64,000 nucleotides of DNA from the NCBI RefSeq assembly GCF_007860175.1, contig NZ_SJPX01000004.1, positions 186,001 to 250,000 on the forward strand. The letters run 5' to 3'. Shown piece after piece: positions 18,623 to 24,256 of the stretch. Numbering within the stretch: position 1 is the stretch's first letter; each line of letters begins with the position of its first letter. Origin of the DNA: Rubripirellula reticaptiva (GTDB taxonomy: Bacteria; Planctomycetota; Planctomycetia; Pirellulales; Pirellulaceae). Under the pieces are notes generated by a model. The model was not told the DNA's origin. It did not search any database and worked only from the letters and a program-made list of their open reading frames with translations. A program made the position numbers and the translations under genes.

Positions 18623-20416
18623 TTAAGCGTCGCCAGGCTGGGAATCGCCGGCGGGCCGATCAACGTCGTCTTCTTTTGGCTTGATCGGGTTTTCAGCGTT
18701 GATCTCGAGCGTCGTTTTCACAACGTCCACCAATTGGTCGAGCCGAAATGGCTTCGATAGCACGCACTTGGGATGCAGGCCGTTTTGGCGTGCTTTGACG
18801 ATCGAGTGTCCCGGGTCGTATCCAAAACCCGTCATCAAGACCATTGGAACTCGTTCCATAATCTCGCCTAATCGCAGCATCAACTGGTATCCGCTGTAAT
18901 CGGGCAGCCGAATGTCGCTGATGATGACGTCATAGCTCTTCGCGCCGCCGCTGCTACGAACCATCCAGACAGCTTCGTCGCCTTTGTGCGCGGTTTCGAC
19001 AATGCAGCCGTAGCGTTCTAGCAATCGGTGGGCGTCTTCGCGAACCGGGCCGTCCGCATCGACGACCAGGATGCGTTTGCCGCGAAGTGCGACATGCTGT
19101 GACGATTCGATGCCGACCGGTACCGCTTCGAGCGGCGTCATCTTTTGACCGACCTGCTGGATCGTTTGCTTGATGTCGCGAGCGTTATGCAGGATACGCT
19201 GCAATCGTTCAACGACTTCGGGACTGTGGCCGATGTAGCCCTCCATCACATTGACGGCGTCGTTCAGAATTTCATCGACCGGCATAGCCACCGCGCTGTG
19301 GATTGCGTCACAGCTCTGTTGTGCCGTGTTGGCTTTTTGAGCAACCAGCAATTCAAGCGTGTTGAGTGCGAAGGCTACGTCGCGAGCAAAGATTTCTAGG
19401 AACTGCAGATCACTGTCGCTGAACGCGTTCGATTCAGGGCTTTCGACATTGATTGTGCCGAGTACTTGATCGTGCAGAATCAGCGGCGCGGTGATCGAGC
19501 TTCGCGACGTCGCGACGCCGGGAATGAATAGAGGATCGTTTTCAACGTCCTGGCAAACGTAGGGCGTGCCGCTGGCGGCGACATAGCCAGTGACTCCGTT
19601 GCCTTGCGGGTGAGCAAACAGTTGGCGGTCGGCGGCGTCTTGGTCGATGCCAACGCTAAGCAGTGGCACCAAATTGCCGGTCGCGTGTTCGAGCAGGCGA
19701 ATCTCGATGACTTCGAAATTCAATAGGTCACTCAGGTAATGGCGAATGTTCTCTTTCAACAGGTCAATTCGCTCGTCGACTTCCATCATGAAGATTTCGG
19801 TCGGGCGAAGATCGGCAAGCTCGCGGCCTGCTTTATGGATCGCTTCGAGTTTTTGTTGTTGCAGGATCTCTTCGGTGATGTCGCTGACCGTGACGATCAA
19901 TTGGCGTGAATGGTGAGGCAGGACCAGCGGCGCGGCGTGAACTTGGAAGTACCGATTCTGCTCGGTGTGCAGTGTGCTGTTGCTCTCTTCACCGGTGGCA
20001 AGTGCCGTGTGGAACGGGCAGAAGTCCGGCCCCATGATTTCAGGGTTCGACAGCAGTTCATAGAAGTTCATACCGGCAACCGAGCCTTCGGGCTTACCCG
20101 ACCACTGTGCCAGTCGGCGGTTTCCCCACAGCAAGCGGATGTCGGAATCAAGCAGCGCGACGCCTTCGGGCATATCACGCAGCATCAAACCGCTCTGCGT
20201 CAGACCACGAAGTTCGCTCAATTGGGGCAGTTGGTCCCGAGCGATCCAGACGCCGTCAATTTCGGGTTCCTGTAATTCGTCGAGCACGGCAACCGACGTA
20301 TCCACGACGATCACAAGGTCGCGGTCGATTTCGCTGGGCAACGTCTGTGGATCTCCAACGCAGATGAGTTTGCGTGGACTGCTGGTAGTCTGTGTCGCCT
20401 GAGGCGATCGATTCAT
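18623..20416 (-). CDS. PAS-GAF-receiver signalling protein without kinase domain
   Basis: A 597-residue cytosolic protein. The order is an N-terminal receiver-like segment without clear active-site residues (about 1-90), a PAS domain (about 93-190, ending VTVSDITEE), a GAF domain (about 215-355, with GNGVTGYVAASG and GTINVESPE), a helical stretch (about 360-430) and a C-terminal receiver (about 444-570) with phospho-acceptor Asp501 in ISDIRLPDYSG and Lys in LSKPF. The helical stretch sits where a HisKA/HATPase module would be expected, but no N, G1 or G2 box is visible, so it cannot act as a kinase by itself. It is convergent with the single receiver gene, 66 bp apart. Its role as a sensor/scaffold in a phosphorelay is inferred. 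Confidence 0.85.
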   Translation of the reverse strand: MNRSPQATQTTSSPRKLICVGDPQTLPSEIDRDLVIVVDTSVAVLDELQEPEIDGVWIARDQLPQLSELRGLTQSGLMLRDMPEGVALLDSDIRLLWGNRRLAQWSGKPEGSVAGMNFYELLSNPEIMGPDFCPFHTALATGEESNSTLHTEQNRYFQVHAAPLVLPHHSRQLIVTVSDITEEILQQQKLEAIHKAGRELADLRPTEIFMMEVDERIDLLKENIRHYLSDLLNFEVIEIRLLEHATGNLVPLLSVGIDQDAADRQLFAHPQGNGVTGYVAASGTPYVCQDVENDPLFIPGVATSRSSITAPLILHDQVLGTINVESPESNAFSDSDLQFLEIFARDVAFALNTLELLVAQKANTAQQSCDAIHSAVAMPVDEILNDAVNVMEGYIGHSPEVVERLQRILHNARDIKQTIQQVGQKMTPLEAVPVGIESSQHVALRGKRILVVDADGPVREDAHRLLERYGCIVETAHKGDEAVWMVRSSGGAKSYDVIISDIRLPDYSGYQLMLRLGEIMERVPMVLMTGFGYDPGHSIVKARQNGLHPKCVLSKPFRLDQLVDVVKTTLEINAENPIKPKEDDVDRPAGDSQPGDA

Positions 20417-21635
20417 CGCTCTTCTCCCACCACCACGCTATTGTCCCGTCAATTCCTTCGCCTGCCAATCTTGCTCGGCGATTTGGACGCCATCCCACAA
20501 CTTACTTGTCCCGCGTGCCAATCTCCTTCAACGTGAGTGAAAGGAACAGACCCTTGGTGCAACGCTCTTCGCTTTATTCTTACTTATTGCTACGCAGGAT
20601 TGAAACCATCGAACATCTACCGAGCCAGCGACCGCGGCAACTCGAATTTCGAGCAATCTAGTCATCACGCCGCTGTCACTTGATTTTGCAAACGCACCAA
20701 GCCGACTGCATCTGCTCTGTCCATTTGTACTAACGTCGTATCATACGCGGCAGTTGTGATTCTGTCACAGCGAACTGGTCAACATTCCGCGGCGAATCAA
20801 GAAACTATTCGAGTCGGCACCCCAGACCCGGGCATGGCGGCAGAACGACCGCCAATCGCTTGCGAGTCCGCCGAAGGATTTCGAATCGGATCGCGATAAA
20901 TCACTTCACCTAAGTGGCCAGCTGACAAAACTCGAAATTCGAAAATCAAATCTTGCCGTTGGGAACGTTCGTGGGAGCAGAGGCGGGGCGTGCTACGGAG
21001 GCGCACCAGGTCGTGACATCTTGAAGGCGATCGTCGAGACGGCGGGCCCGCAAGCTGCCCAGTCTTCCTGTCTTGCTGCCGGGTTTGTTCTTGAAACGGT
21101 AGGCCGAAGTTGGTTGGAAAGTGGTGAACAACGAAATAATGCGGATGTCTGCGAAATTCAGCGGCTGCGGAAAGCTGGGTCCCCCCAAGTGGTGTGGGTT
21201 GTCGTTTCGCTTGGTGTTCACTGGCTCGAGCGTTCACTATCTGGCTACTGGATACGACATCCCCCTGACACTTCCGGCGTCTGTTGAGAACGGCGTCATC
21301 CACGGCAACAATTGGATCATGCGGGCTTCCCTGGCGTGTCTGGAGTGCTAAGAATCAAACAGAAAAGGCAGCGAAAGCTGAGTTGCACGTCCTCGGCAAG
21401 ATCACCCCCAAAATGTCACGGCCTTGTGTGACAAACCGGCTCATGGGCAAAGTTGTCAGCCTGGCAATTTGCCCTTTTTCGCTAGTTTGATGAGAGCGAC
21501 GCGTTGACTTTAGGTGTACAGCCTTTAGGATTGGCGGTCACTGGGCGAGTCGCCCATTTTACGCAGCCGTTAAAAACTTCCTCGTACCTACTTCTGTGGC
21601 CTCACGCGCTGTGAGACGTTTCCGGAGGGTTCCCC
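20417..21635. other. Gene-poor gap, 1.2 kb
   Basis: No gene is supported. An open frame at 20797-21303 on the minus strand is rich in Arg, Ser and Pro and has no recognisable domain; it looks like a chance frame. The right end must contain the promoter of the YTV-repeat gene. A TTGACT at about 21504 followed 17 bases later by AGGATT is a weak candidate. A strong ribosome-binding site GGAGG (21624-21628) lies 7 bases before that gene. Confidence 0.45.
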
Positions 21636-24176
21636 ATGATGAGAGCACAAGTGTTAAAGACCGTTTTCGGGCTCGTTGCGGCGATGTTGTTCGCCGTTAA
21701 CGCCCAAGCAGGATGTGGCGAATGTGGAGGCTGCGAGAGCGGCTCCGGTTGTGTCACAAGTGGCGGAGTCGCCATGGGTAGTGGCGGCGGTAGCGTCGTC
21801 TACAGCAGTGGCGATGCCGCTGCATCGATGGGCGGCGCGTGCGGCCCAAGCGTTTCGTACGAAACGCGAACTGTTATGCAGTCGCAATACGTGACCGAGA
21901 CCCAAATGGTCCCGACCACCTCGTATCAGCGTCAAACGCAAACTCGCATGCGTAACGTGACACGTAGCGTTGCTAAGGTTCAAACCCGTCAGCAAACCTA
22001 CACCGTCAACGTTCCACAAACTCAAACACGTACCGAAACGTACGACGTTCAAGTTTGCGTTCCTTACACCGAAGAAGTCCCTTACACCGTTTCGGTGCCT
22101 GTGACGACTCAGGTTGAAGAATCGTACCAAGTGTCGGTTCCTTACACCGAAACGATCGAGCAATCGTATCAAGTTTCGGTTCCTAAGACCGAAGAGCGTA
22201 CGGAAACTTACACGGTCTCGGTTCCTTACACTGAACAAGAAGCGTACACCGTTTCGGTTCCTTACACCGAGCAAGTCGAACAGTCGTACCAAGTTTCGGT
22301 GCCAGTTCAAAAGACTCGTGAAGAAACCTACCAAGTTAGCGTTCCTTACACCGAGCAAGTTGAACAGTCGTACCAAGTTTCGGTTCCTGTTACTTCGACT
22401 CGCACCGAATCGTACCAAGTTTGCGTTCCTTACACCGAGCAACTCGAGCAAACCTACACGGTTCAAGTTCCTGTGACCTCGACTCGTACGGAAAGCTATC
22501 AAGTTTCGGTTCCTTACACCGAAACCACCACGCAAACCTACACGGTTCAAGTTCCTTACCAAGAAACAAAGACCCAGACTTACATGGTCAACGTTCCTTA
22601 CACTGAAACGGTCGAACAACCGTACAGCGTAACGGTTCCTTACACCGAGCAAGTTGCACAAAGCTACACAGTTCAGGTTCCTTACACCGAACAAGTTGCA
22701 CAAAACTACACGGTGCGTGTTCCTGTTCAAGAAACCAAGACTGCTTACCGTACTGAAACCAAGTGCGTTCCTGTGACTTCGATGCGAACGGTCACCAAGG
22801 ACATGGGCAGCTATCAGTGCCAAGCTGTTGCTGCCGGCGGTAGCGCATCTTACGGCAGTGGTGTTGTCGGTGGCGGATCGGCTTGTGGCGGCGGTTGCGG
22901 TTGTGCCGCTCCTGCTTGCAACAGCGGCTGCAGCACTGGCTGCGACAGCTGTGGTGGCGGATCGGTTGCTTCGGCTTCCTACGGATCGGCTGGCAACGCT
23001 TGTGCACCTGCGGTTTCGTACCGTCAAGTTTACGTGCCTAACTTGGTCACCGAGCAAGTCCCAACGACTAGCTACCAACGTCAGTCACAACAAGTTCCTT
23101 ACAGCTACACGACGACCAGCTACACCACGCAGACTCAAACCCGCATGGTTCCTGTTCAACGTTGCCGTACCGAAACTCGTCAACGCATGGTCAACGTGAC
23201 CAAGTACCGCACCGAGCAACGCAGCCGAAGCGTTCAAGTGCAAAAGTGCCGTCAAGAGCAACGTACTCGTGACTACGTTGTCACGAACTACCGCAGCGAA
23301 ACCAAGACTCGCGAAGTTCCTGTGACTCGCACTCGCTTGGAAACTCGTACCCGCGAAGTTCCTGTAACCACAATGACCACCGAAAATCGTACTCGTACGG
23401 TTTCGGTTCAGAAGACTCGCATGGAAACTCGCACCCGCGAAGTTCCTGTGACCACGATGACGACTCAAACTCGTACTCGTATGGTTCCTGTGACCAAGAC
23501 TCGTTTGGAAGATCGTACCCGTACGGTTAACTACACCGAGATGTCGACTGAAACTCGTACCCGTATGGTTTCGCAACAACGTACTCGTCAAGAGGAACGT
23601 ACTCGCGACATCACTAAGTACCGCAGCGAAGAACGTACCCGTACGGTTCCTTACACCACCATGGTTAGCGAAACCCGTACTCGTAGCGTTCCTGTGACTA
23701 AGACTCGCTTGGAAACCCGCACTCGCATGGTTCCTAAGACGACCTACACCACGGAAACCCGCACCAACACGGTCACTAAGCAACGTATGGAAACGCAACA
23801 GCGTACCCGCGAAGTTGCTTACACCGTCAACGTGCCACAAACCCGTACCCGTAACTACAACGTGACCGTTTACGAAAACGTCACCGAACAAGTTCCGGAA
23901 ACCTACTCGGTTTGCGTCCCGGTTACCACGATGAAGGCAGTTCAAGTTCGCAAGCAAGTTTCGGTCCCAGCGACCGTTACCGTTCCTGTGTACAACTCGG
24001 CTCCAGCGATGAGCACCGGCGTCATGATGGAAGCCGGCAGCGGTTGCATCAATTGCGGCGGCAGCAGCGAAGTCATCATGGACGGTGGCAGCTACGGTGG
24101 TGAAGTCATCCAATCGGCTCCCGTCATGGAAGCTGCTCCGATGGCAACCGGTGCTGGTTGCGTCAACTGTCAGTAA
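21636..24176 (+). CDS. YTV-repeat, Cys-rich putative cell-wall protein
   Basis: The protein has 846 residues. A signal peptide ending AQA (residue 25) precedes a Cys-rich mature N-terminus (GCGECGGCESGSGC). Two long arrays follow with the same 14-residue period. The first (about residues 145-380) has Tyr/Val/Glu units such as SYQVSVPYTEQVEQ, which match the planctomycete YTV motif. The second (about 540-790) has Arg/Thr units such as TRTREVPVTTMTTE. A Gly/Cys-rich linker (about 392-458) with at least eight Cys separates them, and the C-terminus has two CxxC-like motifs (GCINCGG, GCVNCQ). YTV proteins were proposed as components of the planctomycete proteinaceous envelope. Codon use is very uniform (Val-Pro nearly always GTTCCT), which suggests high expression. 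A strong ribosome-binding site and a T-tailed terminator frame it as a single-gene unit. Disulfide cross-linking is inference. Confidence 0.88.
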   Translation: MMRAQVLKTVFGLVAAMLFAVNAQAGCGECGGCESGSGCVTSGGVAMGSGGGSVVYSSGDAAASMGGACGPSVSYETRTVMQSQYVTETQMVPTTSYQRQTQTRMRNVTRSVAKVQTRQQTYTVNVPQTQTRTETYDVQVCVPYTEEVPYTVSVPVTTQVEESYQVSVPYTETIEQSYQVSVPKTEERTETYTVSVPYTEQEAYTVSVPYTEQVEQSYQVSVPVQKTREETYQVSVPYTEQVEQSYQVSVPVTSTRTESYQVCVPYTEQLEQTYTVQVPVTSTRTESYQVSVPYTETTTQTYTVQVPYQETKTQTYMVNVPYTETVEQPYSVTVPYTEQVAQSYTVQVPYTEQVAQNYTVRVPVQETKTAYRTETKCVPVTSMRTVTKDMGSYQCQAVAAGGSASYGSGVVGGGSACGGGCGCAAPACNSGCSTGCDSCGGGSVASASYGSAGNACAPAVSYRQVYVPNLVTEQVPTTSYQRQSQQVPYSYTTTSYTTQTQTRMVPVQRCRTETRQRMVNVTKYRTEQRSRSVQVQKCRQEQRTRDYVVTNYRSETKTREVPVTRTRLETRTREVPVTTMTTENRTRTVSVQKTRMETRTREVPVTTMTTQTRTRMVPVTKTRLEDRTRTVNYTEMSTETRTRMVSQQRTRQEERTRDITKYRSEERTRTVPYTTMVSETRTRSVPVTKTRLETRTRMVPKTTYTTETRTNTVTKQRMETQQRTREVAYTVNVPQTRTRNYNVTVYENVTEQVPETYSVCVPVTTMKAVQVRKQVSVPATVTVPVYNSAPAMSTGVMMEAGSGCINCGGSSEVIMDGGSYGGEVIQSAPVMEAAPMATGAGCVNCQ
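22120..22740 (+). repeat. Array of 42-bp (14-codon) YTV units
   Basis: About fourteen consecutive units with consensus S/T-Y-Q/T-V-S/Q-V-P-Y-T-E-x-x-x-Q. Two adjacent units are shortened to 13 codons each; the others shown are 14. Alternating Tyr/Val/Val suggests extended beta-strands. The net charge is negative because of one to three Glu per unit. Confidence 0.85.
23280..23830 (+). repeat. Array of 42-bp (14-codon) Arg-rich units
   Basis: About thirteen units with consensus T-R-T-R-x-V-P-V-T-x-T-x-x-E, the same 14-residue period as the upstream array but strongly basic. One unit is shortened to 12 codons. The pattern of alternating Thr/Arg and Val fits beta-strands with one charged face. 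Confidence 0.85.
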
Positions 24177-24221
24177 TTTCGTTAGAAGCTCTGTCCATAG
24201 CAGGGTAACTTGAAAATTTGA

Positions 24222-24256
24222 AAGCCTCGGAAACGAAAGTCTCCGGGGCTTTTTTT
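24222..24256 (+). terminator. Rho-independent terminator of the YTV gene
   Basis: AAGCCTCGGA (24222-24231) pairs with TCCGGGGCTT (24242-24251), one T-G wobble, over a 10-base loop and runs into a tract of seven T. It lies 45 bases past the stop codon. Confidence 0.9.

Follow-up and report, generated by a model that had tools for sequence, protein, structure and literature searches.

Mirror-matched repeat arrays in planctomycete YTV proteins point to a probable fold-back antiparallel beta-ribbon

One gene in the window, by which we mean the whole 64,000-nucleotide stretch of DNA that was analysed, encodes a Cys-rich protein composed largely of two repeat arrays of opposite charge. The locus raises the question of how these arrays relate to one another: whether they pair, in which direction, and whether the rule that governs them can be read from the family as a whole.

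The gene and its protein

The features of the gene and its product are collected in Table 1. A preliminary description of the locus had proposed a ribosome-binding site, a dedicated terminator and uniform codon use, and sequence features in keeping with all three were found. The purine-rich GGAGGG motif lies upstream of the first ATG, and a stable hairpin follows the gene. This hairpin ends in seven T (to 24256), of which four belong to the stem; it was absent from the output of a simple terminator scan. Codon bias was the strongest among the 16 window ORFs measured, with an effective number of codons (ENC) of 34.6 vs 41.1–50.9. The neighbouring gene (18623–20416, minus strand) appears from its translation to encode a GAF and response-regulator protein. 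A gene of this type is found near the YTV gene in 9/20 homologous loci, and is a possible candidate for a regulator of wall synthesis.

Table 1. Coordinates of the YTV gene, the parts of its protein and the flanking signals
Feature	Residues	Nucleotides	Strand	Basis
Likely ribosome-binding site, GGAGGG		21624..21629	+	Sequence; 6 nt upstream of first ATG
YTV protein ORF, 846 aa		21636..24176	+	ORF list and Pfam YTV (PF07639) match
Likely Sec signal peptide	1–25	21636..21710	+	Read from sequence; AQA end, then GC
N-terminal Gly/Cys-rich segment	26–70	21711..21845	+	Sequence
N module, acidic array	86–389	21891..22802	+	Anchors A1 to E1, D1 = 303
Internal 12-residue unit of N array	196–207	22221..22256	+	Centre 187 residues before E1
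Gly/Cys linker, predicted turn	396–459	22821..23012	+	Sequence and AlphaFold2
C module, basic array	465–762	23028..23921	+	Anchors A2 to E2, D2 = 296
Internal 12-residue unit of C array	659–670	23610..23645	+	Mirror partner of 22221–22256
C-terminal Gly/Cys-rich tail, GAGCVNCQ end	785–846	23988..24173	+	Sequence
Terminator-like hairpin		24220..24253	+	−20.6 kcal/mol, z −4.0

The protein matched the Pfam YTV family (PF07639) with 142.4 bits against a cut-off of 21 (E 4.1e-42, 12 stretches), and by its sequence is a member of this known planctomycete wall family. The same genome encodes at least four further YTV proteins. Of the named relatives found, the nearest comes from Rubripirellula obstinata, with 71% over its best segment. 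The family was detected in 23 of the 294 genomes of our phylum sample, 21 of them from the same class and two with distant, weak matches, and in 0/14 control genomes, which were the sole genomes outside that sample. The two distant matches (L035 and L036) contain 0 and 2 Cys and show no clear period, and are likely not true YTV members. Eight database proteins (P0004, P0015, P0022, P0028, P0029, P0056, P0058 and P0072) have, besides the YTV label, further accessions that we take to be von Willebrand A-type domains; this co-occurrence reflects either fusion or a low-complexity cross-match. Three others (P0010, P0013 and P0044) are YTV-like, yet are called 'ferredoxin' in the source naming, probably a misnaming due to their Cys clusters.

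In published work, YTV proteins are named as major constituents of SDS-boiled walls in Gemmata (PMC5287468) and are top-scoring in the SDS fraction of wall preparations from Tuwongella (PMC8567305), and one YTV protein is counted among the essential genes of Planctopirus (PMC10632474). PF07639 also appears in a table of a modelling paper, with no structural match given for it (PMC8078820). In searches of open-licence literature, nothing was found on a pairing of the arrays, on their equal lengths, on mirror-placed units or on a fold-back, nor any structure or mechanism for these proteins. Its signal-like N-terminus, together with the proteomics of its relatives, suggests that the window protein is exported and located in the wall.

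Autocorrelation was scored against 300 shuffles. Peaks at 28 and 14 residues were obtained for the N array (residues 120–378; z 18.9 and 18.6) and for the C array (residues 495–745; z 15.2 and 13.9), so that the period of 14 proposed for both arrays was recovered, with a 28-residue alternation superimposed in each. Units of the N module are mostly 14 residues long. The two modules also have common start and end cap motifs (VPTTSYQRQ and CVPVT). The period extends to homologues, whose units are mostly of 14 residues, with one related subfamily having a period of 16 in both arrays.

The acidic and basic character of the arrays was likewise confirmed, with a net charge of −19 over 259 residues in the N array and +31 over 251 in the C array. 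Acidic residues are near-equal in number (31 and 25), whereas there are 12 Arg plus Lys in the N array and 56 in the C array; charge segregation in this protein is therefore due to its basic residues, and not to Glu. The protein is Cys-rich, with 24 Cys in 846 residues. As had been described, these are concentrated in the linker and at the ends, with five at residues 27–69, nine at 395–456 and four at the C-terminus. The remaining six lie inside the arrays (141, 263, 377, 510, 538 and 760).

Array lengths and mirror-placed units across the family

We compared the lengths of the N array (D1) and the C array (D2) between cap anchors that were located separately for each array. The pool comprised 188 frames, of which 117 were anchored; the 71 left unanchored were truncated frames, 16-residue types, proteins with von Willebrand A labels and weak matches. 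D2−D1 was −7 in 116/117 anchored proteins, although these have 30 distinct values of D1, ranging from 139 to 383 residues and all odd.

The difference was recovered with each way of placing the anchors. Motif anchors gave −7 in 41/41 proteins when the last E2 candidate was taken, and in 38/41 when the first was taken instead. A PSSM search that makes no use of length gave −7 in 63/63 further proteins at a score of at least 0, a cut chosen after the list had been seen. This search also recovered 41/41 of the motif-anchored proteins when all proteins of the same length were left out of training. Rows scoring below 0 (84/147) gave −7 in just 20/84; they were excluded from the 63/63 count, and some were anchored later by a second PSSM or by hand. 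The second PSSM, with a preset threshold, gave −7 in 7/8 proteins, and hand anchors gave it in 5/5. L102 is the sole anchored protein to break the rule: two units present in the C array of its close relative L103 are missing from its own, while their N arrays are equal. It may be a genuine intermediate, or else a collapsed repeat. On a tree built from the caps, D1 changes 53 times and D2−D1 once. The Fitch count of 53 depends on a short cap alignment, and the tree-free lower bound is 29.

More distant proteins were also measured. Seven of 12 long divergent database matches could be anchored; D1 was 314 in all of them and D2 was 321–324, so that their arrays are equal within 3 residues, but not exactly. 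Among 16-residue proteins, for which start candidates were picked by eye, D1/D2 was 156/150 in four and 188/182 in another four, a constant difference over two lengths. Six further members are all 140/138 and, having one length, are uninformative on the rule. The spacing between E1 and A2 is as short as 19 residues among homologues.

The position of irregular units provides a finer comparison of the two arrays. Segmentation into units was carried out on 86/117 proteins (31 with D1 = 149 were skipped) in the interior zone alone, leaving out the array ends. It yielded 30 short N units, 27 of them single 12-residue units and 3 split 6+6 by the script, at 11 distinct positions in 18 proteins. Every one (30/30) has a partner in the C array at the mirror position x'+13; in the window protein the N unit is centred 187 residues before E1, and its partner lies 200 from A2. 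The clearest case is L106, which has three short units per array. Their separations are 8 and then 4 units in the N array, but 4 and then 8 in the C array read forward. When the units were mapped in parallel, no single offset fitted, and the offsets varied among proteins. The mirror was absent for the 16-residue irregularities of P0059 and L165.

Repeat spacings within each array are almost without exception even: 1380/1380 VP–VP spacings in N arrays, and 756/758 ExRTR spacings in C arrays. Parity is argued here from raw spacings alone; scoring with the unit table disfavours odd lengths. With even spacings, residues keep the alternating inward and outward orientation of a beta strand across the whole array.

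A separate observation concerns L163, an order-level relative. Both of its arrays have a 76-residue super-repeat of 16, 14, 16, 16 and 14-residue units. Its six 14-residue units mirror exactly about one centre, in a pattern that also fits a parallel mapping. There is an apparent reading-frame shift near its C-terminus.

Charge coupling and structure models

The correlation between the charges of facing residues was computed after removal of the repeat background. Charges were anticorrelated in antiparallel mapping, with a minimum r of −0.267 at c=7 (z −5.5) flanked by c=5, 9 and 3, and the lowest value fell at c 5, 7 or 9 in 25/27 length classes. In 2000 random rotations of the N array by whole units the mean was 0.021 (sd 0.0095) and the minimum −0.014, so that the observed value was never approached. 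The 16-residue subfamily had its minimum at c=5 (z −5.0, with 15/21 proteins given). There was no comparable signal in parallel mapping, where the lowest value was −0.073; a parallel register of the arrays was rejected on this result and on the inconsistent unit offsets.

Charge coupling was also examined between arrays of different proteins. N arrays set against C arrays of proteins of different length gave no signal (lowest −0.021; 400/9528 pairs). With C arrays of other proteins of equal length the signal was weaker, −0.14 at c=5 and −0.111 at c=7 (400/932 pairs), this being a partial control because related proteins have common patterns. When the background omitted the neighbouring unit, the main dip stayed, at −0.274 (c=7). 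Weak dips of −0.096 at c=17, −0.095 at c=21 and −0.081 at c=−5 also appeared with this background; they lie one unit off register and may reflect contacts beyond a simple ribbon. The first charge analysis showed no second register, and its value at c=−7 was positive, but its background suppresses signals one unit away.

The preliminary description had singled out the segregation of charge between the arrays as notable; as a conserved principle, segregation did not survive comparison with homologues. The C array is more positive than the N array in 73/104 homologues, made up of 70/75 genome loci and 3/29 protein-database matches; in the other 26/29 database matches the C charge is not above that of N. 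The arrays are opposite in net sign in 51/104. Homologues without segregation thus exist, and the claim is weakened accordingly, while local complementarity between facing residues holds across most length classes. We therefore dropped segregation as a primary, conserved principle, and regard it as one solution to local complementarity, secondary to the rule itself. Disulfides between facing strands were also looked for. The opposite was found: at c=3 there were 0 facing Cys pairs among 104 homologues, against 71 at −11 and 81 at 17, one unit to each side, indicating avoidance of Cys at this register.

AlphaFold2 models were built for the window protein, using 29 relatives, and for one relative of 599 residues, using 21. 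Both were of low confidence, with pLDDT 47 and 52 and pTM 0.22 and 0.20. The model of the window protein pairs strands 73–197/662–786, 268–389/470–591 and 392–399/460–467, mirrored about a sum of 859, and contains a helix at residues 3–16 of the putative signal peptide; segments 198–267/592–661 appear slipped by 28 residues. That of the relative pairs 63–280/345–562, mirrored about 625. Both mirror centres correspond to c=5, and the longest strands are 125 and 218 residues in these low-confidence models. Long continuous strands, if modelled correctly, would differ from the repeat-on-repeat stacking within one array expected of a beta-solenoid, and a solenoid does not explain the mirror coupling between the arrays. 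The models are not fully independent of the length rule, as the alignment may itself carry the length signal. A sequence search of the PDB did not find a solved relative, and Foldseek returned nothing at E <= 0.001, a weak test owing to the low confidence of the model used.

The proposed fold and its alternatives

The arrays of a YTV protein are thus matched residue for residue in opposite directions, as judged from the sequences of 116/117 anchored proteins and from 30/30 mirror units. Pairing between the N and C arrays in an antiparallel register is well supported by the exact agreement of array lengths, by the mirror positions of irregular units and by charges that are complementary around one register. 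Since this geometry is in register about the linker, it points towards a fold-back hairpin rather than the head-to-tail arrangement originally suggested; that suggestion is supported in that the arrays pair, but not as to their direction. We infer that pairing occurs within one chain and in continuous strands, and likewise the extended length of the ribbon and its role in the wall. The chain probably turns back at the Gly/Cys linker, so that both arrays form one giant antiparallel beta-ribbon of two strands, which would act as a rod in the wall of planctomycetes.

The acidic N and basic C arrays would zip together from the turn at the linker. An extended beta strand rises by about 0.33 nm per residue, and the ribbon of the window protein, with 303 paired positions, would be about 100 nm long if fully extended; the number of units would set the length of the rod. 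At one tip the Cys clusters of the two chain ends would come together, with the linker Cys at the opposite tip. Each rod would then be a double-ended cross-linker, and its tip clusters could join rods into an SDS-resistant wall. The 14- or 16-residue unit may be one turn of a strongly twisted ribbon.

The same antiparallel, in-register pairing could instead take place between molecules, as a swapped dimer or as side-by-side sheets of alternating acidic and basic arrays that build up a polymer. Length, mirror, parity and charge evidence fits pairing within and between chains alike, the free edges of a ribbon would make lateral assembly in that register favourable, and YTV proteins have been placed in SDS-resistant walls (PMC5287468). 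We nevertheless think this arrangement rather doubtful, though a serious contender: an E1 to A2 distance of as little as 19 residues suits a turn, and within a single chain each array already has its partner at a high local concentration. A closed tube, in which the paired strands coil as a double antiparallel beta-helix, each turn taking up about 14 (or 16) residues, to make a short, stout rod, is unlikely in our judgement. It would explain the constant unit length in both arrays, the matched 12-residue turns and the Pro that recurs at one position of many units. It also needs a second register between N and C about one unit off, which is where the weak dips at c=17 to 21 and c=−5 are found. 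These dips, however, are about one-third as deep as the main dip and may contain leakage from the 28-residue alternation, and the positive value at c=−7 in the first analysis, though subject to the suppression noted above, also speaks against a tube.

Electrostatic head-to-tail pairing of whole acidic and basic arrays is consistent with the opposite net charges of the window protein and of about half of its homologues. We consider it very improbable, because many homologues that obey the length rule either lack segregation or show the reverse, and because loose electrostatic pairing has no need of residue-exact mirror matching. Least credible of all, and close to negligible, is the idea of two independent beta-solenoids of similar size whose equal lengths are an inheritance artefact of internal duplication. 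The cap motifs common to both modules of the window protein do make an internal duplication likely. Thirty distinct lengths, however, require joint length change at least 29 times (53 on the tree), and neither the mirror-placed short units nor the register-specific charge coupling is accounted for by a solenoid.

If the fold-back ribbon is correct, the mirror rule, which holds over 30 lengths, tells from sequence which residues touch which. A Cys-rich wall repeat protein would be recast as a defined rod, reactive at both tips and with its length fixed by the gene. An evolutionary puzzle follows, in that each change of length apparently requires a pair of mutations, mirror-placed within one gene. 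The rule also makes directly testable how planctomycetes maintain their shape with little or no peptidoglycan. The YTV family is already known; its fold may well belong to a new class. A fuller proposal, which we put forward tentatively and at slightly less than an even chance, is that YTV proteins form a new fold class of self-zipping, single-chain, two-stranded beta-rods, from tens of nanometres to more than 100 nm in length. Mirrored repeat counts would fix how long each rod is, and Cys clusters would link the rods at their tips to build a protein sacculus with the function that peptidoglycan has in other bacteria.

The window protein resembles its YTV relatives from Rhodopirellula, Gemmata, Tuwongella and Planctopirus in being Cys-rich and in having tandem Y-T-V/VP repeats. 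Among other systems, the long beta-hairpins of the pore-forming proteins lysenin, aerolysin and protective antigen are two-stranded and antiparallel, as is proposed for YTV, and pore-forming proteins were frequent in the weak Foldseek list for the YTV model (TM-scores about 0.1, E > 0.001). Their hairpins, however, are several times shorter, form membrane barrels on assembly and lack repeat arrays. SasG and Aap of staphylococci are surface rods whose length tracks repeat number, made up of folded repeat domains that follow one another on a single chain. Length is coded by repeats in these proteins, as is proposed for YTV, but YTV has two arrays matched in opposite directions. Beta-solenoids and curli-like repeat proteins are built of short beta repeats of constant length, each array stacking on itself; YTV proteins share the short constant repeats, and differ in having a partner array and a mirror rule.
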